This document shows, in pieces, positions 15,327-25,139 of a stretch of DNA of 64,000 bases. Made by a program: the position numbers and the translations under genes. The notes under the pieces were generated by a model, which saw nothing but the letters and a program-made list of their open reading frames with translations, was not told the origin of the DNA and did no database searches. The stretch spans positions 1 to 64,000 of the forward strand of contig JAGKSW010000100.1 in NCBI GenBank assembly GCA_018993265.1, in the 5' to 3' direction. Position 1 is the first letter of the stretch. Every line of letters starts with the position of its first letter. This stretch comes from Nostoc sp. TH1S01 (GTDB lineage: Bacteria > Cyanobacteriota > Cyanobacteriia > Cyanobacteriales > Nostocaceae).

Positions 15327-15342
15327 ATGAGACTTTTCTCAT
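15327..15342. promoter_or_regulatory. Operator-like palindrome ATGAGA-N4-TCTCAT
   Basis: ATGAGACTTTTCTCAT lies 144 bp upstream of the SLC13 permease. Its arms equal those of the perfect palindromes at 20368-20395 (before the porin) and 22615-22630 (before the histidine kinase). Probably a shared regulator-binding site. Confidence 0.55.
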
Positions 15343-15485
15343 TTTTCCTTAATTATCCTCTCATAAAGGTCGAATTAAATTTAGATTAAGCCAAAGTTAA
15401 ACCATACTGATTCAAACTGTACTTTTTGCCAGGGGGTACATATACAAACAATTTTGTGTAAATAAATACAAGCAAAAGCTAGAAA

Positions 15486-16949
15486 ATGAAACTAAATATA
15501 GATAAATCCAGGCATATCCCTATAAATCCTTTATTAATGAGATTTAGCGTGTCTTTTCGCCGTTCAAGTCCTTGGCAGATTAAATCACTTGTAGCAATAT
15601 TTTTAACTTCTCTATCGGGAGTATTAGTATTTATACCACAAGGTTTATCTATACAAGGACGGTTGACAATATTTGTATTTCTCCTAGCTGTTATTTTGTG
15701 GTCAACAACCTCAATTAATGCTGGTTATGTAGCTTTATTTTCTGTGCTGTTGTTGCTGTTAACTGGAGGCATTTCTCAAGCACAATTTTTTGAGTCTTTG
15801 GGTTCTGATGTTGTCTGGTTAATGATAGGTGCGTTTATTTTAGGGGGTGCAGTTAAGCAAACAGGTTTAGCTACACGACTGACTCAAATAGTGGCTGCAA
15901 AAGCACACAATGTCAGCAGTTTATTTTGGTTACTGACGACAGTTTTAATTCCCCTATCGTTTTTAATTCCCTCGACTTCGGGACGCGCTGCTGTTACCCA
16001 TCCGATTTTTCGCAGCGTCGCCAATGCTACGGAGGATCAACGAATTCGTCGGGCGATCGCATTATTAATGCCCACTGTGATTCTAGTCTCTACCATCGTT
16101 TCTCTCACAGGCGCAGGTTCGCATTTAGTCGCTCAAGATTTATTACAAGAAATTTCCGATACCAGTATTTCTTTTAGCCAGTGGTTGCTTTATGGCTTAC
16201 CTTTTGGAGTTGTTGCTAGTTACGCCTCTTGCTGGGTAATCATGCGGTTGTTTTTAGATAAACAACGCTTGCAACAAAAGTTAAATGTGGAATATCTGCA
16301 AACAGAATCTTTATCTATGCCAGAACGCAAAACATTATGGATTGTTTTGTTAATGTTGGCACTGTGGATCACTGAACAATGGCATGGGTTAGAAATTGCT
16401 ACTGTCACCGTCATTGGTGCAATGATTCTCACCGCGCCTAATTTTGGGGTAATTCAATGGAAAGATGCTGTCAAAGCTGTTTCATGGAATCTAATTATTT
16501 TTGTCGGTGCAACTTTAGTATTAGGCAAAGCATTAATCAGTTCTGGTGTTTCGGGATGGTTGATTAATAATATTTTTCAATTTAGTGACATCAACAGTGC
16601 CAAATCTCACTTCTTGATTTTGCTAATAATTGCCATTATTTCTCTCACTTCTCACATATACATGACTTCTCACACCGCTAGAGCAGCAGCTTTAGTTCCG
16701 CCGTTGCTTTACCTCGCTAACAGTTTAAATATTAATCCTGTCGCTGTCTTATTTCTTAGCACTTTGGGTATGGACTATTGCCTGACTTTTCCTGTCAGTT
16801 CTAAAGCATTAATGGTTTATCAAGATGCAGACGAAGGCTTTAAAACCACAGATTTACTCCGGTTAAGTTCAGTGATGATTTTGATCCACTTGGCTTTAAT
16901 TCTGGTGTTTTACTACACCTGGTGGCGTTGGGTAGGATTATCTCTCTAA
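15486..16949 (+). CDS. SLC13/DASS-family anion permease
   Basis: Polytopic membrane transporter (487 aa, about 12 hydrophobic segments) of the divalent-anion:Na+ symporter superfamily, which imports dicarboxylates, sulfate or similar anions. Helix-breaking repeats with conserved Ser/Thr are visible in SLTSHIYMTSHTARAAALVPP (about residues 384-404) and IPSTSGRAAVTHPIF (about 160-175). Glycerate kinase follows 64 bp downstream on the same strand, so an organic acid feeding that enzyme is a plausible substrate, but this is inference. The leader contains the ATGAGA-N4-TCTCAT motif shared with the two-component cluster. Confidence 0.85.
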   Translation: MKLNIDKSRHIPINPLLMRFSVSFRRSSPWQIKSLVAIFLTSLSGVLVFIPQGLSIQGRLTIFVFLLAVILWSTTSINAGYVALFSVLLLLLTGGISQAQFFESLGSDVVWLMIGAFILGGAVKQTGLATRLTQIVAAKAHNVSSLFWLLTTVLIPLSFLIPSTSGRAAVTHPIFRSVANATEDQRIRRAIALLMPTVILVSTIVSLTGAGSHLVAQDLLQEISDTSISFSQWLLYGLPFGVVASYASCWVIMRLFLDKQRLQQKLNVEYLQTESLSMPERKTLWIVLLMLALWITEQWHGLEIATVTVIGAMILTAPNFGVIQWKDAVKAVSWNLIIFVGATLVLGKALISSGVSGWLINNIFQFSDINSAKSHFLILLIIAIISLTSHIYMTSHTARAAALVPPLLYLANSLNINPVAVLFLSTLGMDYCLTFPVSSKALMVYQDADEGFKTTDLLRLSSVMILIHLALILVFYYTWWRWVGLSL

Positions 16950-17013
16950 TTCTTCCCCATCTCTCTAAATTTAACGACAAAAAAAGCGGCTGGATTGCCG
17001 CAGGAAAATAATA

Positions 17014-18264
17014 ATGACACTAAACATTTTAATCGCTCCTTCTGGATTTAAAGAAAGTCTAGATGCAGAACAAGTTGCTGACTGCATTGCTACAGGTATC
17101 ACCAGAGTTATACCCGATGTAAATATTTGCAAAGCACCTTTAGTAGATGGCGGTGAAGGCTTTACCAAAACCTTAGTTGCAGCTACAGGTGGAACCTTGC
17201 ATCACTTGGAAGTAACTGGCCCTGTAGGACAAAAAGTACAATCTCACTTTGGCTTTTTAGGTGGAACTATTAAAAAAACCGCAGTGTTAGAAATGGCGGC
17301 TGCTGCTGGGTTGCGGCTGGTACCTACTGATATGCGAAATCCCATGATAACAACCACTTATGGAGTAGGTGAGTTAATTAAGACTGCTTTAGATGCTGGT
17401 GCAGAACGCATTTTAGTTGGTTGTGGTGATTCTGGCACGAATGATGGTGGTGCGGGGATGGCGCAAGCTTTGGGGGTGAAGTTGCTAGATGAGAATGGTA
17501 ATGAGTTAGGTTTGGGTTGCAGTGAATTAGTTAAACTCCAACGCATAGATTTATCTACAAAGGACTCTCGTTTAAATCAAATTCAGATTGATGTTGCTTG
17601 CAATTGGCATAATCTTTTGTGTGGTGAAAAAGGGGTTGCGAGAGTTTTCGGCCCGCAAAAAGGCGCATCTGCTGAAACGGTAGAGAAAATGGCTTTCGCA
17701 TTAGAACACTACGCTGCGGTTATCAAAGCAGATTTGGGTTTGGATGTGCGAGAAATGCCTGGTAGTGGTGCTTCTGGTGGTTTGGGTACTGGCTTGCACG
17801 CCTTAATCGGCGCGAAATTACACCCACGCTACGATATTGTGATGCAGTATTTAGAATTAGATAATTTAATTCCTCAAGCTGATTTGGTGATTACAGCAGA
17901 AGGTTGCATTGATTTTCAAACGCCACGGGGTAAAATTCCGGCGGAAGTTGCTAAACGTGCCAAGCGTTATCAATTACCAGTGATTGCATTAGTTGGGACG
18001 ATTGGCGAAGGTGCAGAAATTAATTTTCAGCAAGGAATAGACTATTTCAATAGTATTTTGACTCATCCTTGTCAATTAAATGAGGCGATTTCTCAAACAG
18101 AAATTTTGTTAACTAATGCGGCTGAACAAGTAGCAAGGTTGTTGTTAGTTGGGAAGCAAATTAGACGTTATCAAGATTTACGTAAGGGGAATAAAACGAA
18201 CCACAGAGGACGCAGAGTTTCCGAGAGTCTGTTAGTGACTTCGAGCTATAAAAATATCAGTTAG
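17014..18264 (+). CDS. glxK: Glycerate kinase (GlxK/GarK family)
   Basis: ATP-dependent glycerate kinase giving phosphoglycerate. The family N-terminus LIAPSGFKESLDAEQVA, the VDGGEGF motif (about residue 46), GCGDSGTNDGGAGMAQALG (about 137-155) and the C-terminal TAEGCIDFQTPRGKIP segment are all present. Cells use it to return glycerate from photorespiration or uptake to glycolysis. At 416 aa it exceeds the usual ~380: the last ~25 residues come from a dispersed AACGAACCACAGAGGACGCAGAG-like repeat that displaced the original stop. It is probably co-transcribed with the SLC13 permease and ends at a strong intrinsic terminator. Confidence 0.9.
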   Translation: MTLNILIAPSGFKESLDAEQVADCIATGITRVIPDVNICKAPLVDGGEGFTKTLVAATGGTLHHLEVTGPVGQKVQSHFGFLGGTIKKTAVLEMAAAAGLRLVPTDMRNPMITTTYGVGELIKTALDAGAERILVGCGDSGTNDGGAGMAQALGVKLLDENGNELGLGCSELVKLQRIDLSTKDSRLNQIQIDVACNWHNLLCGEKGVARVFGPQKGASAETVEKMAFALEHYAAVIKADLGLDVREMPGSGASGGLGTGLHALIGAKLHPRYDIVMQYLELDNLIPQADLVITAEGCIDFQTPRGKIPAEVAKRAKRYQLPVIALVGTIGEGAEINFQQGIDYFNSILTHPCQLNEAISQTEILLTNAAEQVARLLLVGKQIRRYQDLRKGNKTNHRGRRVSESLLVTSSYKNIS

Positions 18265-18294
18265 TAATTTACAGCTAATCTGAATTGAAATATT

Positions 18295-18336
18295 TCCCCA
18301 AAATTTACTATTTATCTGTTGATTTTGGGGATTTTT
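18295..18336 (+). terminator. Intrinsic terminator of the permease/glycerate-kinase unit
   Basis: TCCCCAAAAT and ATTTTGGGGA form a 10-bp stem with a 17-nt loop, followed immediately by TTTTT. Located 30 bp after the glycerate kinase stop. Confidence 0.85.
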
Positions 18337-18361
18337 GAATGTGTATAAATCAGGAGTAGTT

Positions 18362-18727
18362 ATGCAGAAGATTTTGATTGTTGAAGATGAGACGCGGATT
18401 GCCATATTCATAGAGAAAGGCTTGCAGCGGAATGGGTTTAATACTGCGATCGCTAATAATGGCGAACAAGCTTTACAAATGTTAACTACAACTAAATTTG
18501 ACTTGTTGTTATTAGATATTAATTTACCTGTTAAAGATGGTTTAACAGTCATATCGGAACTGCGCGAACATAATTTGCTCATTCCTACAATTATAGTTAG
18601 CGCGAATCATGAAATTCTCAAACAAATACCTCAATCAGGAAATAAAGCTGTTCCTTACATCAGTAAACCATTTCGATTTACTGAGTTGTTAGACAGCGTG
18701 CGCGCTCATTTATCACCAACTAATTAA
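18362..18727 (+). CDS. Stand-alone response-regulator receiver
   Basis: Single receiver domain (121 aa) with no output domain. The acidic pair in LIVEDE, phospho-acceptor Asp in LLLLDINLP, conserved switch Ser (VSAN) and Lys in SKPFR are all present. The ATG at 18362 has AGGAG at 18352-18356; an upstream TTG would add nine unsupported residues. Its opening, EDETRIAIFIEKGLQRNGF, closely resembles that of the OmpR-type regulator at 22.6-23.3 kb (EDEPRIAAFIEKGLRSHGF), so it is likely a shortened paralogue that could receive phosphate from the same kinase. It overlaps the convergent porin gene by 4 bp. Confidence 0.85.
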   Translation: MQKILIVEDETRIAIFIEKGLQRNGFNTAIANNGEQALQMLTTTKFDLLLLDINLPVKDGLTVISELREHNLLIPTIIVSANHEILKQIPQSGNKAVPYISKPFRFTELLDSVRAHLSPTN

Positions 18728-20298
18728 AATTCTAAGCTGGTGCGAATAGTCCCGACCAAAAGGCTATCGTTATTCGCGTTATGTTCAGGGTTAGTAATTA
18801 AAAATATTCCTGGAGTAATCGAAATATTTTCTGACACCTGAAACCGATAAAAACCTTCTATATGTAAAGAAGTATCTCTATCAGCTACTAAACTACTACT
18901 GATAACTTTTGGTGGCATTCCCACAACTAAACCGGCTAAATTACCCTCACTACCTAAATCAGGAAAGGCTAAACTAATGGCATAATTTAAAATTTCGGCA
19001 TCATCATTTGTGACTGGTGACTCTGCTTGTGTATAGCCAACCCAACCAGAAACAATAAATTTAGAATTAATTCGCCAGCTAGTTTCTAAACCAAAGGAAT
19101 TTGCTGTAGTCGAAACATTACCAAAAGGGCTACGTGCTGTTAAACTACCTGTGCTACCTGTCAAATTTACATCGCTGTCTCCACCGCCTGCATAGTAAGT
19201 ATGAATATAGGTAAAAGCAATGCCTAAATTGTTAGTTGGTTGATAAGTTAAATTTCCTAGTGCTGCAAAGTTACCATTAAATAAACCGTTCTTTTCTGTT
19301 GGTAAAGCCGCATTATTAGTTAGGTAAGCAAAGCCAAGATTAGTATTATTATTTATTTGATAATTTAGTCCTAATCCTGTGCCATCCATGCTGCGAACAA
19401 TCGGATTATATCTACCAAAACGGGAAACTGCACCACTATCGCTACTGGCTAAAGGATTGATTGGTTCAGCAATATCATTTAATTCCATTTCAGTCACAGC
19501 AAGTGTAGTTTTGATTTTGTCTCCAATAGGAAATGAATAATATACTTCATCTAAACCAATGTTATTATTTGTATCTTCATCAAAGCCTAAACGCGTCATT
19601 GCTGTTCCGGTAATGCTTTCATCAAATTCAGGAATATTACCCGATTCTAAGCGGATGTTTAATTCATCTTGATCAGTAAAACTAGTCAGAAAATTTAACC
19701 GTACACGTTGAGCCAATGTAATATTTGTATTTAAGTCGGGATTGTTATTAGAATTATTATCACTATCGGCAATCGTTTTACCAACAATGCCAGCCGCACC
19801 TATAATTACTTCAGCTTCTAGTTTTGTTGTAGGTGAAAACTGGTTTGCAGCCAACTCCGAGGTTTGAATTTCTAAAATATCTACCCGATTGCGGATTGTG
19901 GCTAATTCTGAAGCAAATTCTATTTGCAGTTTTTGAATTAAATCTAAGTCTGTTGTAGTTATAAGAGTATCTTTTGTTGTTATAATTAGTTCTTGAATTC
20001 TTGCTAAACAAGTATTTAAACCTGCTGCAAACTCATAACGTGATATGGCGCGATTGCCACGATATGCCCCATTAGGATAACCAGCAATACAACCGTATCT
20101 TTCTACTAAAGATTGTAGAGCTTGAAATGCCCAATCTGTAGGTTGAATATCAGAAAGTTGAGAAACTGAAGTTAACTGTGCCAATTCTGCTTGAGGTGCC
20201 ATTGGCTGATTTTCAAAGGCAAAACTTGGTGAAACAATTGGGAATGTAGTGAATATTAAACTTGATGAGGAAATGATTTTTTTACACAAATTAGACAT
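18724..20298 (-). CDS. SLH/OprB-type outer-membrane porin (iron-uptake porin family)
   Basis: Cyanobacterial outer-membrane porin (524 aa from the ATG at 20298; a TTG at 20322 is less likely). Order: signal peptide ending near SFAF, an SLH domain (DIQPTDWAFQALQSLVERY, then ISRYEFAAGLNTCL), a coiled coil, and a long OprB-like beta-barrel rich in alternating hydrophobic strands ending in an aromatic residue (SLEF). The SLH domain binds pectic/peptidoglycan polymers and the barrel passes inorganic ions or small solutes. A 28-bp palindrome sharing the regulator motif lies about 70 bp upstream. The PepSY-like lipoprotein and the two-component genes precede it on the same strand. Confidence 0.9.
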   Translation of the reverse strand: MSNLCKKIISSSSLIFTTFPIVSPSFAFENQPMAPQAELAQLTSVSQLSDIQPTDWAFQALQSLVERYGCIAGYPNGAYRGNRAISRYEFAAGLNTCLARIQELIITTKDTLITTTDLDLIQKLQIEFASELATIRNRVDILEIQTSELAANQFSPTTKLEAEVIIGAAGIVGKTIADSDNNSNNNPDLNTNITLAQRVRLNFLTSFTDQDELNIRLESGNIPEFDESITGTAMTRLGFDEDTNNNIGLDEVYYSFPIGDKIKTTLAVTEMELNDIAEPINPLASSDSGAVSRFGRYNPIVRSMDGTGLGLNYQINNNTNLGFAYLTNNAALPTEKNGLFNGNFAALGNLTYQPTNNLGIAFTYIHTYYAGGGDSDVNLTGSTGSLTARSPFGNVSTTANSFGLETSWRINSKFIVSGWVGYTQAESPVTNDDAEILNYAISLAFPDLGSEGNLAGLVVGMPPKVISSSLVADRDTSLHIEGFYRFQVSENISITPGIFLITNPEHNANNDSLLVGTIRTSLEF

Positions 20299-20367
20299 TG
20301 GAAAGCAAGATTTAATTGTCAATATCTTGAGTTAACTATATCTTAATTTAAACTTAAATTGACTTAA

Positions 20368-20395
20368 TAAAGTATGAGAAATTTCTCATACTTTA
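20368..20395. promoter_or_regulatory. 28-bp perfect palindrome with ATGAGAAATTTCTCAT core
   Basis: A perfect 28-bp palindrome centred on ATGAGAAATTTCTCAT, 4 bp beyond the lipoprotein stop and about 70 bp before the porin start. The identical 16-bp core occurs at 22615-22630. It may act as operator, terminator, or both. Confidence 0.7.
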
Positions 20396-20399
20396 AAAC

Positions 20400-20852
20400 T
20401 TAATCTTCATACAAGTCTACTTGTGTATTTCCATTCACATCAAAATATAGCTCGTATTCCATCTCACCATCAGTGATATCTACTTCATAAAAATTGCCTT
20501 TAGGCGTGATTTCAATTTCATATTTGGTAATTTTAAATGTAGGATATTCTTGGCGAATGCGTTTTAAGACAATCTCAGGAAATTCTTTTTCTGTGACATA
20601 GTATTCCGTTTCTAACCATTCACCTGAATCAGAAAACTCAGCTTCGTATTTGATATTATTTTGAATAAAAGTAGCTTCATAACCATAGTAATTTTTTTGC
20701 CAAAGGCGCGGAATGTCAGAATACTCATTTTTGAATGCAGCGTCTACAATAGCAGGCACATTTAGAGATTTTTGTGAACTATTACAAGCAGCGAGCGCAA
20801 AAATTAGCACAGCTTTAACAGTACCAGCTATAATCTTGTGTAGAGGCATCAT
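20400..20852 (-). CDS. PepSY-like lipoprotein
   Basis: Predicted exported lipoprotein (150 aa): a hydrophobic signal ends in the lipobox FALAAC with the lipidated Cys near residue 23. The mature part carries two PepSY-like/BLIP-like repeats, recognised by the alternation of Y-x-A-x-F/Y strands with acidic helices (KYEAEFSDSGEWLETEYYV; FYEVDITDGEMEYELYFDVNG). Such proteins often sit beside two-component systems as periplasmic sensors or inhibitors. It lies 60 bp downstream of the histidine kinase on the same strand and may modulate it; this role is inference. Confidence 0.72.
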   Translation of the reverse strand: MMPLHKIIAGTVKAVLIFALAACNSSQKSLNVPAIVDAAFKNEYSDIPRLWQKNYYGYEATFIQNNIKYEAEFSDSGEWLETEYYVTEKEFPEIVLKRIRQEYPTFKITKYEIEITPKGNFYEVDITDGEMEYELYFDVNGNTQVDLYED

Positions 20853-20912
20853 ATAATTTGAGTTTTACTTATTACCTTTAGATAATTTTATTTTTACTTT
20901 ATCAATAATCTT

Positions 20913-22463
20913 TTAATTATTACTCTCTTGAGGTGGTTCTAAAGGTAATGTAATTGTGAATGTGGCTCCTGCTCCTAGTTGACTTTCGAGAGTCACTTCT
21001 CCACCGTGAGCCTCTACAATAGCTTGAACTATAGATAATCCTAACCCGGCTCCTTCAGAACGACGGCGACTGTTTGCAGCACGCGCAAAACGTTCAAAAA
21101 TTCTTTTTTGGTCGGCTTTTGCAATACCCTCGCCAGTGTCGCTTACCCAAAAGTAAACTTTATTTTTATGAATAGCTGAACCCAGGGTGATGGTATCGGT
21201 AGTTTTTGTATGTTGAGTAGCGTTTTGGACTAAATTCATCACAGCCTGTGTCAAACGCTGGCGATCTGCAACAATTCTACCTTTAGCAGTGGCTCTTAGT
21301 TGCCAGTTGCGATCGCCTAAAGCTTGCACTTTGACAAATAATTCTTCGATTAAAATATAAATATCAACTGTTTCTAAATATAAAAAATTAGGATGTTCCG
21401 CCTTTGTCAGTAAACTTAAGTCATTTACAAATCGGTTCATACGTTCTAATTCATCTATTACTAATGCTAGAGTTTCTTGTATTTCTAGTGGATCATAACC
21501 CATCAACTCTAAATGTCCACGAATAATTGTAATCGGCGTGCGTAATTCATGACCAGCATCATTAATAAAATTGCGCTGGCTAATAAAAGCAGCTTGTAAT
21601 CTATCCATCATTTCATTAAAAGTAGCTGTTAATTCTGCAAGTTCTCCCTCACCAATTATTGAAAGACGTTGATTTAAATCTGACTCGCTAATATTACGCG
21701 CAGTTTGAGTTAAAAAGCGTAAAGGGGCAAGAATTCTTCCTGACGCAAACCAAGCTAAAACTAAAGCTAATAATATAATTCCCGCACTTACAGGGATAAT
21801 CACTCTAATAGCTTCTCCTACCTCGCCGTGTTCGCCAGCAGTAGTGTGTGCAATGACAAATACTCCGATAACTTCATTATTAATTTTGACAGGTTGAGCA
21901 AGATAAATAATATTACCAACGCTGCTACTAGGGATTATCTTTTCCCCTTCTTCTGGTTGAGTTAATGTTGCCCAATATCGAATTAGTTTGGAGTCTCTAC
22001 TCAGTTCTTTTGGTCTACCTCTAGGACTAGATTTATAAAACGTTCCTTCTGTTAAGGCAATTAAAAACGTGTCATCTTCAGGAATTTGATTTACCAAGAA
22101 AGCATCAAAAAAATCTTTTAACTCATTTAAAGTTTTTGGAGGTTTAATTAAGCGATTATCCGCCTCTCTTAAGAGATTAATTTTCTCTTCCGCTTCGCCA
22201 TTTTCTAGATAATCAAATAATTGAGGTTTACCGTTAACTAATTCTAAAAATATTTCCATTTTTTCGTTAATTTCTTTATGAACGCGTCTATTAACTTGTG
22301 CATACAAGAAATAACGAAATACTGGCACAAAAAAGATAAATATAAAACATAAAATTAGGAAGTACCAAAAAAGTATTTGAGTACGTGTCGCCCAAAACAA
22401 ACCTTTAATATACTTGAAGCAGCTTTTTTTAACTTCTTGTTGATGATTGGGAATTTTTCTCAT
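20913..22463 (-). CDS. Membrane sensor histidine kinase
   Basis: Class I sensor kinase (about 516 aa). An N-terminal TM helix (about residues 25-50) and a second one (about 225-245) flank a periplasmic sensor of about 170 residues. HAMP (about 245-295), the HisKA H-box NDAGHELRTPITI and HATPase_c with N, G1 (DTGEGI) and G2 (GAGLGLSIV) motifs follow. The ATG at 22463 is preferred to the TTG two codons earlier. It lies downstream of the response-regulator gene on the same strand, the cognate order. The palindrome ATGAGAAATTTCTCAT lies 150 bp upstream. The signal is unknown; the porin and lipoprotein neighbours suggest a periplasmic solute or metal. Confidence 0.93.
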   Translation of the reverse strand: MRKIPNHQQEVKKSCFKYIKGLFWATRTQILFWYFLILCFIFIFFVPVFRYFLYAQVNRRVHKEINEKMEIFLELVNGKPQLFDYLENGEAEEKINLLREADNRLIKPPKTLNELKDFFDAFLVNQIPEDDTFLIALTEGTFYKSSPRGRPKELSRDSKLIRYWATLTQPEEGEKIIPSSSVGNIIYLAQPVKINNEVIGVFVIAHTTAGEHGEVGEAIRVIIPVSAGIILLALVLAWFASGRILAPLRFLTQTARNISESDLNQRLSIIGEGELAELTATFNEMMDRLQAAFISQRNFINDAGHELRTPITIIRGHLELMGYDPLEIQETLALVIDELERMNRFVNDLSLLTKAEHPNFLYLETVDIYILIEELFVKVQALGDRNWQLRATAKGRIVADRQRLTQAVMNLVQNATQHTKTTDTITLGSAIHKNKVYFWVSDTGEGIAKADQKRIFERFARAANSRRRSEGAGLGLSIVQAIVEAHGGEVTLESQLGAGATFTITLPLEPPQESNN

Positions 22464-22614
22464 TGTCAAACAACAATGCGACAGATAAACTACTCATTGA
22501 AACGCTATCTGTCGCATTTTAATTAATATTAATTAACCTCAGATGAAACTTCTAGGCCTATAAGTTACATCTTGATTATTTTATTGAGTATACGATAATG
22601 AAGATAAAAGTTTG

Positions 22615-22630
22615 ATGAGAAATTTCTCAT
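22615..22630. promoter_or_regulatory. Perfect 16-bp palindrome ATGAGAAATTTCTCAT
   Basis: Overlaps the stop codon of the response-regulator gene (22627-22629) and lies upstream of the histidine kinase. It equals the core of the palindrome before the porin. Likely an autoregulatory operator that splits the regulator and kinase into separately adjustable units. Confidence 0.6.
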
Positions 22631-23295
22631 GTTCGCAGACGATAACCCATACCTCGGACAGTTTCAATCAGGTGGTTGCCTAGTTTTTTACGCAAGTATC
22701 CTACATAAACATCGACAATATTAGAACCTGGGTCATAATCGTAACCCCATACCCTATCTAACAATTGCTCACGGCTCAAAACTTGTCCGGGATGGCGAAA
22801 AAAGGTTTCTGCGAGAGTGAATTCCCGTGCAGGTAATTCTAGAGTTTTGTTACCCACTTTTACTTTACGCGATCGCAAATCTAAAACTACATTTCCCACC
22901 TTCAACACCATCTCATCATTAGCTTGGCTACTAAAACTATTACGTAATCGCGCTTTTACCCGTACTAGTAATTCTTCAAATCGAAAAGGCTTAGTAATAT
23001 AGTCATCAGCACCCGCTTCAAAGCCTGCAACTTTATCTTGAATATCATCACGCGCAGTCAAAATAATTATAGGAAAGTTCTCCCCTTGTCCCCGTATTTC
23101 TTCTAAAACATCTAAGCCATCCTTACCCGGTAGCCCTAAATCTAAAATCATCAAGTCAAAAGAACTACCTAACGCCATTTCTGTAGCTGAATGTGCATCA
23201 ACCGCCACAGACGTTGTAAAACCGTGAGAACGCAATCCTTTCTCAATAAAAGCCGCAATTCTGGGTTCATCCTCCGCAATAAGAATTCGATTCAT
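22627..23295 (-). CDS. OmpR/PhoB-type response regulator
   Basis: Two-domain DNA-binding regulator (222 aa from the ATG at 23295; a GTG three codons earlier is possible). The receiver has EDE, phospho-acceptor Asp in LMILDLGLPGKDG and Lys in TKPFRFEE. The winged-helix domain (about residues 125-222) has LPAREFTLAETFFRHPGQVL and the recognition region GSNIVDVYVGYLRKKLG, ending RGMGYRLRT. Partner of the downstream kinase. The preferred ATG has GGTG about 8 bp upstream. Probable user of the ATGAGA-N4-TCTCAT sites. Confidence 0.93.
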   Translation of the reverse strand: MNRILIAEDEPRIAAFIEKGLRSHGFTTSVAVDAHSATEMALGSSFDLMILDLGLPGKDGLDVLEEIRGQGENFPIIILTARDDIQDKVAGFEAGADDYITKPFRFEELLVRVKARLRNSFSSQANDEMVLKVGNVVLDLRSRKVKVGNKTLELPAREFTLAETFFRHPGQVLSREQLLDRVWGYDYDPGSNIVDVYVGYLRKKLGNHLIETVRGMGYRLRT

Positions 23296-23304
23296 CTGAT
23301 GCAC

Positions 23305-24049: not shown

Positions 24050-25042
24050 TCACTTACCAACTTTAGGCTCAAATATTAAATAAGTGCCTCCCAAACCTTC
24101 TACAATTGTGCGTGTGTTAGCCTCCAACATTTTTTGATAACTATTAGCATCACTATTGGCATCTCCAAGACCATCTGTGTAAAGTTCTCGTTCCGAAACT
24201 GTAACTTCTGCTGCTTGTGCTACCGATTGAATTAACTTCTTATTAATATTTTTCTCAGCAAAAATAGTTGGTACTTTAGCCCGTTGAATATCTTGAACTA
24301 AATTGTTCAACTGCCTATCTGTTGGTTGATTTTCGGGATTAATACCGGCTAACACCCCGACTAAAGACATACTATAAGCTTTGGCATAATAAGCCAGCGC
24401 ATTGTGACTTATCACTAATTCACGTTTATCACGAGGAATACTTGCAATTCTGGTTTTGATCCAACTATCTAACTGAGTTAACTCACTTTTAATTTGTTTA
24501 GTATTACGATTATAAATTTCCGCATTATCAGGCTCTAATTTCTTCAGATTATTGCTAATGACCTCAACCATTTTGATGCCATTTTTAGGATTATGCCAAA
24601 TATGGGGGTCTATAACTCTTGTGCCATCTTCAATAAATCTTTGTGGTTTCGGCACTGCTAACTGACTCACAGCTATTTTTGGTGCAGTATTACTAGTAGA
24701 CTTAATAATTTTGATCAAGCCTGGTTCAAAATTGTAGCCATTATAAAAAATCAGATTAGCTTGGTCAAGAGTTTCTCGATCTGCTGCTTTTGGTTGATAG
24801 TTATGGGGGTCTGTACCTGGAGGAATTAAACAGGCGAGGTTAACTGTATTTTCAGCAACTTGTTTAATTAAGTCACACAATACACTTGTTGTAGCCACAA
24901 CTTTCGGAATACTTTCGTCTACTGTTGTAGTTTGAGTAAATGAAGTATTAGTGGCTTGTCTTGCACAACCAAAAAGCCCAATCAAAAAAGTAATGCAAGC
25001 AGACAGCCTTACCAAATTATTAAATAGCAATTTATTTAGCAT
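24050..25042 (-). CDS. Metal ABC transporter substrate-binding lipoprotein (ZnuA/MntC family)
   Basis: Cluster A-I metal-binding lipoprotein (about 330 aa). A signal peptide ends in the lipobox LFGC. Expected ligands are visible: His in DPHNYQP, His in DPHIWHNPK, His in ISHNALAYYAKAY and Asp in TDGLGD, as for Zn2+ or Mn2+ binding. The His-rich loop of many ZnuA proteins is absent, which makes MntC-like specificity possible. The ATG at 25042 is preferred over a TTG two codons upstream. No ATPase or permease partner is in the window, so it is an orphan that must share a transporter encoded elsewhere. Confidence 0.88.
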   Translation of the reverse strand: MLNKLLFNNLVRLSACITFLIGLFGCARQATNTSFTQTTTVDESIPKVVATTSVLCDLIKQVAENTVNLACLIPPGTDPHNYQPKAADRETLDQANLIFYNGYNFEPGLIKIIKSTSNTAPKIAVSQLAVPKPQRFIEDGTRVIDPHIWHNPKNGIKMVEVISNNLKKLEPDNAEIYNRNTKQIKSELTQLDSWIKTRIASIPRDKRELVISHNALAYYAKAYSMSLVGVLAGINPENQPTDRQLNNLVQDIQRAKVPTIFAEKNINKKLIQSVAQAAEVTVSERELYTDGLGDANSDANSYQKMLEANTRTIVEGLGGTYLIFEPKVGK

Positions 25043-25139
25043 AATCAACTGCTAGTAGCTTTCCTGAATAAATTTAACAATAGTCATTATTATTAAATAA
25101 CAGTGAAATGTGAAATATTCAGGATTCTCAATTACAACA

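Follow-up and report, generated by a model that had tools for sequence, protein, structure and literature searches.

In the 64,000-nucleotide stretch of Nostoc sp. TH1S01 DNA analysed here (positions 1 to 64,000 of contig JAGKSW010000100.1, forward strand; hereafter the window, contig C43 of a genome of 7,653,454 bases in 247 contigs), three copies of the palindrome ATGAGA-N4-TCTCAT accompany a cassette encoding seven proteins: a DASS/SLC13-type permease, a glycerate kinase, a stand-alone receiver, a porin, a PepSY-like protein, a sensor histidine kinase and an OmpR/PhoB-family response regulator. Read from its sequence context, the palindrome appears to be part of an operator through which the adjacent regulator would drive the permease, glycerate kinase and receiver genes, the kinase and PepSY genes, probably the porin gene, and unlinked genes on contig C83, a reading given a probability of roughly 0.84. 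As the operator recurs beside relatives of this regulator and tracks its presence across genomes, the regulator is very likely an activator of the permease–glycerate kinase–receiver and kinase–PepSY genes, and less surely of the porin gene. It is very likely that the genes beside the three palindromes belong to a single regulon; regulons of this kind are familiar from metal-response regulators, whose DNA code and target genes are different.

The palindrome and its operator–promoter unit

Exact copies lie at 15327–15342 (operator 1), 20374–20389 (operator 2) and 22615–22630 (operator 3), with no other copy in the window and none in 100 dinucleotide shuffles of it, which served as the chance control. 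Across the whole genome (7.65 Mb) the exact pattern occurs at four places, three of them in the window and the fourth at C83:18658, so that the objection of a frequent motif unrelated to these genes fails; the reversed pattern, used as the genome-wide control, occurs nowhere. The original prediction had placed the palindrome before the permease, porin and histidine kinase genes, with two copies identical over 16 bp and the porin copy inside a 28-bp perfect palindrome; all three positions were confirmed, the copies at 20374 and 22615 share the same 16 bp, and the longer palindrome spans 20368–20395. In addition, the copy before the kinase gene shares bases with the regulator's stop codon. A looser pattern (up to two mismatches) was found four times in the window where 2.8 occurrences were expected, and at this chance level supports no claim beyond the exact sites.

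Conservation of the palindrome was assessed in the best 80 of 342 loci carrying relatives of the regulator (67–98% identity; all cyanobacterial except one from Actinomycetota). The zone from −2.5 to +3 kb around the regulator gene (414 kb of these loci) contains the palindrome 33 times exactly and 35 times with one mismatch, against 17 and 11 times in the other 895 kb, whereas eight control palindromes, the CusR-type ATGACA-N4-TGTCAT included, have no exact copy in either zone and one-mismatch copies summing to 3 near and 10 far. A chance origin of the palindromes is ruled out by their rarity in the genome, the empty shuffles and this enrichment near the regulator relative to control palindromes. 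Together the window and the 80 loci yielded 99 sites, of which 95 fall between genes or at a gene boundary, although coding sequence makes up 80% of this DNA.

The palindrome forms the promoter-distal part of a longer unit, ATGAGA-N4-TCTCAT-N5-TTTCAT-N5-TTTCAT-N10, usually completed by a −10 box. When all 99 sites were scanned, offset by offset on either side of the palindrome, for the half-site core (TTCA or CTCA), the counts peaked at +11 (53) and +22 (56), with 0–7 at the remaining offsets except +37 (20), a peak that would correspond to a conserved Glu codon in the regulator's C terminus at the stop-overlapping sites. Removal of redundancy left 75 sites, with half-sites at +11 in 39 and at +22 in 35, where chance gives 0.54 per offset. 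Among the 82 sites whose extra half-sites gave an orientation, A occupies +49 and T occupies +53 in 85% each (the first A of ATGAGA being 0), positions that mark a −10 hexamer starting 10 bp past the last half-site; the −10 pattern stands at this fixed place in 49 of the 75 non-redundant sites, as against 24% of the 25 sites without extra half-sites. Operators 1 and 3 of the window have one good extra half-site each, placed one or two helical turns further along. An operator model was built from 69 listed oriented sites (67 aligned; one site each of loci L169 and L176 omitted); selection of these sites had favoured high-scoring third and fourth half-sites, and the model is therefore no independent evidence for those half-sites. 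Its weak matches (E 0.01–10, for example three on contig C181) fall mostly over direct half-sites and were left uninterpreted.

Co-occurrence of operator and regulator across genomes

Sixty genomes, comprising the strain's own and 59 relatives, were scored for the regulator (match at E≤1e-60) and for the operator (operator-model match at E<1e-4). Of the 27 genomes with the regulator 26 have the operator, and of the 33 without it 2 do (Fisher p 1.4e-13); seven of the 27 had supplied sequence to the operator model, and among the regulator-bearing genomes that had supplied none the operator is found in 19 of 20. The exact palindrome occurs in 19/27 genomes with the regulator versus 5/33 without (p 1.8e-5), and the reversed control pattern in 9/27 versus 9/33 (p 0.78). 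The recognition helix of the regulator, SNIVDVYVGYLRKKL, is nearly invariant in 81 regulators, with G202 in 81/81 and Y203 in 80/81. The rarity of the motif, its conservation beside the regulator, the phased operator–promoter arrangement and this co-occurrence support the proposal of the original prediction that the genes would be controlled together, as one regulon, by the adjacent two-component system.

Several observations weigh against this reading. In 20 of the 80 loci, some of them short contig ends, the stretch from −4 to +5.5 kb around the regulator contains no palindrome even when one mismatch is allowed; operator 2, before the porin gene, has neither a third nor a fourth in-phase half-site; and the extension of operator 1's control to the receiver gene is read from gene order alone. 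Genome G045 encodes a 59%-identical regulator and has no operator match, and among the genomes without the regulator, G019 has a partial operator, G014, G033 and G046 have a bare palindrome, and G006 keeps a near-perfect operator of the type found on C83 (36.7 bits) together with the operator-1 palindrome, a retention that needs either recent loss of the regulator or another binder. In G006 the permease-to-regulator cassette is absent between the same neighbours, a DUF427 protein and ZnuA (locus L088, G006:C1:6833008); the matching DNA stops inside operator 1, leaving the palindrome behind, and the JmjC gene is broken while the C83-type operator is retained. G009, also without the regulator, has kept the C83-type genes with the JmjC gene intact and an operator decayed to 17.9 bits. 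Both genomes fit a loss of the regulator, and G006 by itself counts as evidence against a strict rule.

In the 12.3-Mb genome G028 the exact palindrome occurs twelve times, the regulator is matched three times at E≤1e-60 and the operator model 33 times at E≤0.1, perhaps the mark of an expanded regulon.

Genes of the cassette and predicted targets elsewhere

The operators, promoter elements and genes of the cassette are located as follows.

15327–15342, + strand: inverted pair ATGAGA-N4-TCTCAT of operator 1, before the DASS permease gene (exact motif, operator model)
15359–15364, + strand: operator 1, fourth half-site TCTCAT, exactly 22 bp past the right half-site (sequence, +22 phase over the 99 sites)
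15486–16949, + strand: DASS/SLC13-type anion symporter (Na_sulph_symp, CitMHS; PF00939, 154 bits)
17014–18264, + strand: glycerate kinase (PF02595)
18362–18727, + strand: stand-alone receiver, 121 amino acids from the ATG at 18362 (TTG at 18335), a paralogue of the regulator's receiver
18724–20322, − strand: OprB/SomB-type outer-membrane porin, start TTG 20322 or ATG 20298 (NF033921, 642 bits)
20335–20340, − strand: candidate porin −10 box TATAGT, one base off the usual phase (from sequence)
20368–20395, − strand: operator 2, inverted pair 20374–20389 within the 28-bp perfect palindrome (sequence)
20400–20852, − strand: PepSY_like protein, probably a lipoprotein (PF11396)
20913–22463, − strand: sensor histidine kinase with HAMP, HisKA and HATPase domains (domain matches)
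22587–22592, − strand: candidate −10 box TATACT of the kinase promoter, 11 bp past the third half-site (from sequence)
22604–22609, − strand: operator 3, third half-site TTTTAT, 11 bp past the second (sequence)
22615–22630, − strand: operator 3, inverted pair overlapping the regulator stop codon and reading toward the kinase (exact motif)
22627–23304, − strand: OmpR/PhoB-family response regulator with recognition helix SNIVDVYVGYLRKKL (PF00072, PF00486)

Operator 1 is the best operator-model match in the genome (37.2 bits, E 2.0e-8), being also a training sequence, and at its +11 place holds CTTAAT, a poor third half-site. Operator 3 scores 25.2 bits over model positions 2–35, and the TATACT box of the kinase promoter is also present in the nearest relative, L099. 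The permease scores 170.4 bits against TIGR00785, under the cut-off of 198.6. The glycerate kinase gene is the sole PF02595 gene found in the genome; within the genus, four of 11 genomes searched (G000, G001, G005 and G008) encode such a kinase, each in single copy, and the same four carry the cassette. The receiver gene is possibly the last of the permease operon, as judged from gene order. Both regulator domains exceed their cut-offs (PF00072, 98.4 bits; PF00486, 92.2 bits), placing the protein in the OmpR/PhoB family. In the predicted membrane topology of the histidine kinase, two long helices flank a putative periplasmic domain; the structure model (predicted local distance difference test score, pLDDT, 77; predicted template modelling score, pTM, 0.44) recovers kinases in general among the best 50 of 1165 structural matches and therefore carries no information on the signal. 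A gene for a ZnuA-type zinc-binding protein adjoins the cassette (24050–25048) with no palindrome, the Pfam match having been made on its G006 counterpart.

Receivers depend for function on acidic residues, an Asp, a Ser and a Lys, and OmpR-type receivers dimerise through a further stretch. In alignment, the window's stand-alone receiver has kept these functional residues but lost much of the dimerisation stretch. In 31 of the 80 loci a stand-alone receiver open reading frame (ORF; 95–175 amino acids) is found no farther than 5.5 kb from the regulator, a tally that hinges on the ORF limits and misses some receivers (for example in L100, L161 and L162), and in 21 loci the palindrome stands no more than 700 bp upstream of a stand-alone receiver. 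The simplest reading of this protein is a phosphate sink or kinase competitor; competitors of such a kind have been described in other systems (PMC10368727, PMC9430884).

On contig C83, the segment 18611–18674 (minus strand) holds the second-best operator in the genome (35.4 bits), which was not a training sequence. It lies about 0.1 kb before a gene whose small secreted product has Asn/Ser repeats, an Asp tail and no Pfam match; behind this gene follows a JmjC-domain gene. The locus as a whole (C83:16844–18674; L096, L238) is unlinked to the cassette, with divergent vWA genes on its other side.

The operator precedes different genes in other lineages. In other genera it stands before GT28-like glycosyltransferases, UDP-glucose dehydrogenase, a SulP transporter and receivers, and in two members of the genus (G008, G010) before a protein judged by eye to resemble RTX repeats. 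Loci with the operator before UDP-glucose dehydrogenase or before glycosyltransferases bearing the motif YSHDxxGLGNIRRM include L104, L110, L111, L121, L123, L128 and others. Nonomuraea gerenzanensis (L244) encodes a regulator 58.6% identical to that of the window, with operators at 2129 and 4652: an exact palindrome precedes genes for an Asp-tailed secreted protein, a kinase and the regulator, and a second, looser operator (two mismatches, 11-bp steps) overlaps the 3′ end of the regulator gene and precedes DUF4956 and VTC genes. The claim that the system spans cyanobacteria and actinomycetes stands on two loci, L244 and L155. Since other genera and Nonomuraea share the operator design before different genes, the regulator is old, as is its location next to the operator, and it is the cargo that varies. 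The original prediction of one uptake-and-sensing system accordingly fits the window's clade, where the cargo seems to take up and use a small organic acid, and does not extend to the many relatives with the operator before cell-surface glycan genes and stand-alone receivers; uptake looks like a local cargo because glycosyltransferases, UDP-glucose dehydrogenase and stand-alone receivers follow the operator elsewhere.

Known systems, alternative explanations and a proposed mechanism

At PhoB class II promoters, tandem half-sites in 11-bp steps end about 10 bp before the −10 box, and the bound PhoB array recruits RNA polymerase in place of a −35 element; the operator described here differs in adding an inverted half-site at the far end, and the regulator scores 196 bits against the PhoB family (TIGR02154), below the cut-off of 296.2. 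The silver-resistance regulator AgrR of Cupriavidus metallidurans is described as recognising ATKACANNNNTGTMAT, an inverted repeat of 6-4-6 form, aided in activation by direct half-sites that stand in phase with the repeat at some operators, as a type II activator at most promoters studied there, and as positively autoregulated (PMC7380067). The present operator resembles this box in its 16-bp 6-4-6 inverted repeat and in-phase direct half-sites, with type II activation and positive autoregulation as further proposed parallels; unlike it, the cyanobacterial half-site has G at position 5 where the AgrR box has C (a symmetrical C-G to G-C change is reported nearly to abolish activation by AgrR; PMC7380067), up to two direct half-sites follow in 11-bp register, and silver-resistance genes were not seen among those here. 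The Escherichia coli CusR/HprR box, ATGACAATTTTGTCAT, has the same 6-4-6 geometry (PMC11195947, PMC8249747) and differs in the C at position 5 of the CusR half-site, in the recognition helix (TNAIDVAVKRLRGKI versus SNIVDVYVGYLRKKL) and in the copper and peroxide signals reported there. The half-site ATGAGA thus departs from the ATKACA/TGTMAT of AgrR and CusR. In the E. coli K-12 cusR–cusC region (L098), a third half-site, TGTCAC, can be read 11 bp past the CusR palindrome toward cusC. Synechocystis CopR, likewise a cyanobacterial OmpR-type regulator, shares the half-site TTCAT with the direct half-sites here, whereas its box is described as a direct repeat, TTCAT-N4-5-TTCAT, with no inverted half-site in that description, and serves copper genes (PMC4182526). 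As AgrR and E. coli cus share a 6-4-6 inverted repeat with further half-sites, the architecture is not new; new are the G of the half-site, the regular spacing kept through as many as four half-sites, the lineage of the regulator and the regulon.

A literature search that used no gene name of the regulator and covered few subscription papers found no account of this system. Anabaena all4502/all4503 found no support as orthologues, being called sphS/sphR homologues in the available account (PMC7564538), and a CutR-type motif for the actinomycete relative was dropped, CutR being reported to bind TAWATAAA (PMC12802291).

An ordinary copper or heavy-metal regulon of the CusR/CopR type with a drifted box is unlikely. 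The 6-4-6 geometry common to E. coli cus and AgrR (PMC7380067) would favour it, as would the best kinase match (TIGR01386, heavy-metal sensor kinases) and the second-best regulator match (TIGR01387, CzcR/SilR/CopR); both scores nevertheless lie under the curated cut-offs (205.1 of 292.55 and 195.2 of 279.2 bits, respectively), ATGACA-N4-TGTCAT has no exact match in the 80 loci, the recognition helix is unlike that of CusR at 8 of 15 positions, and no metal efflux protein is encoded among the seven of the cassette, nor were efflux or oxidase genes found among the targets when the C83 proteins are included. Binding of the sites by a different transcription factor of the genome is distinctly improbable, given that the operator follows the regulator in the genome sample (26/27 versus 2/33) and adjoins it across genera, although operator matches occur without it in G006 and G019 and the genome itself encodes five further OmpR-type matches (38–48% identity, E≤1e-40). 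Paralogues of 43–48% identity are poor candidates for such a binder because the genomes G003, G004, G007 and G009, which encode them, have no operator match below E 0.02.

Least credible is a role of the palindromes as RNA hairpins, terminators or attenuators between genes, rather than as protein-binding sites. Such a role would account for the location of operators 2 and 3 at or just past stop codons and for the folding of operator 2's 28-bp palindrome at −14 kcal/mol (z −6.1), but operators 1 and 3 fold scarcely better than shuffles (z −1.7 and −1.0), the conserved +11/+22 half-sites and −10 box would be superfluous for a hairpin, and operator 1 lies about 0.7 kb behind the nearest upstream listed ORF. 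Because its RNA would fold into a stable hairpin, operator 2 may also serve as an attenuator between the PepSY and porin genes. The 28-bp palindrome lies 4 bp behind the PepSY stop codon.

Control by the adjacent regulator is thus the preferred explanation, and the following course of binding and activation is proposed for it. The kinase would phosphorylate the regulator, which would then bind the inverted pair and, where present, the in-phase TTTCAT half-sites at +11 and +22. As the last half-site sits 10 bp before the −10 box, the bound array would stand in for a −35 element and recruit RNA polymerase, as AgrR, by analogy, is thought to do as a type II activator. The regulator would raise its own kinase and the PepSY protein in positive feedback, and would activate the permease, glycerate kinase and stand-alone receiver genes, probably the porin gene, and the unlinked C83 gene for the small secreted Asp-tailed protein with the JmjC-domain gene behind it, the operon extents being predicted. 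The receiver, made under the regulator's control, may compete for phosphoryl groups and so provide negative feedback.

The structure model of the PepSY protein (pLDDT 87) resembles periplasmic BLIP-like DUF2874 proteins, with its best structural match to 3u1w (described as calcium-binding; E 1.6e-8) and a weak match to 3db7 (described as calcium-regulated; E 7.6e-3). These calcium-linked matches, together with the UDP-glucose dehydrogenase and RTX-like repeats behind operators elsewhere, suggest, as a guess, surface cation status as the signal. A broader and rather doubtful view would place the system in an old envelope-sensing family of cyanobacteria and actinomycetes with a TCTCAT code, a divalent-cation signal, the receiver as a phosphate-sink brake, and a cell-surface output whose core would comprise UDP-glucose dehydrogenase, glycosyltransferases, RTX-like repeats, Asp-tailed secreted proteins and the PepSY/BLIP-like protein.

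The operator is precise enough for the regulon of this two-component system to be predicted in other genomes. The system shares the geometry of AgrR and CusR and departs from them by C to G at one position and by another recognition helix, which makes the two types a natural pair in which to study base choice by OmpR-type regulators. The tie, seen in many lineages, between the regulator and a stand-alone receiver whose gene follows the regulator's operator points to a feedback design.

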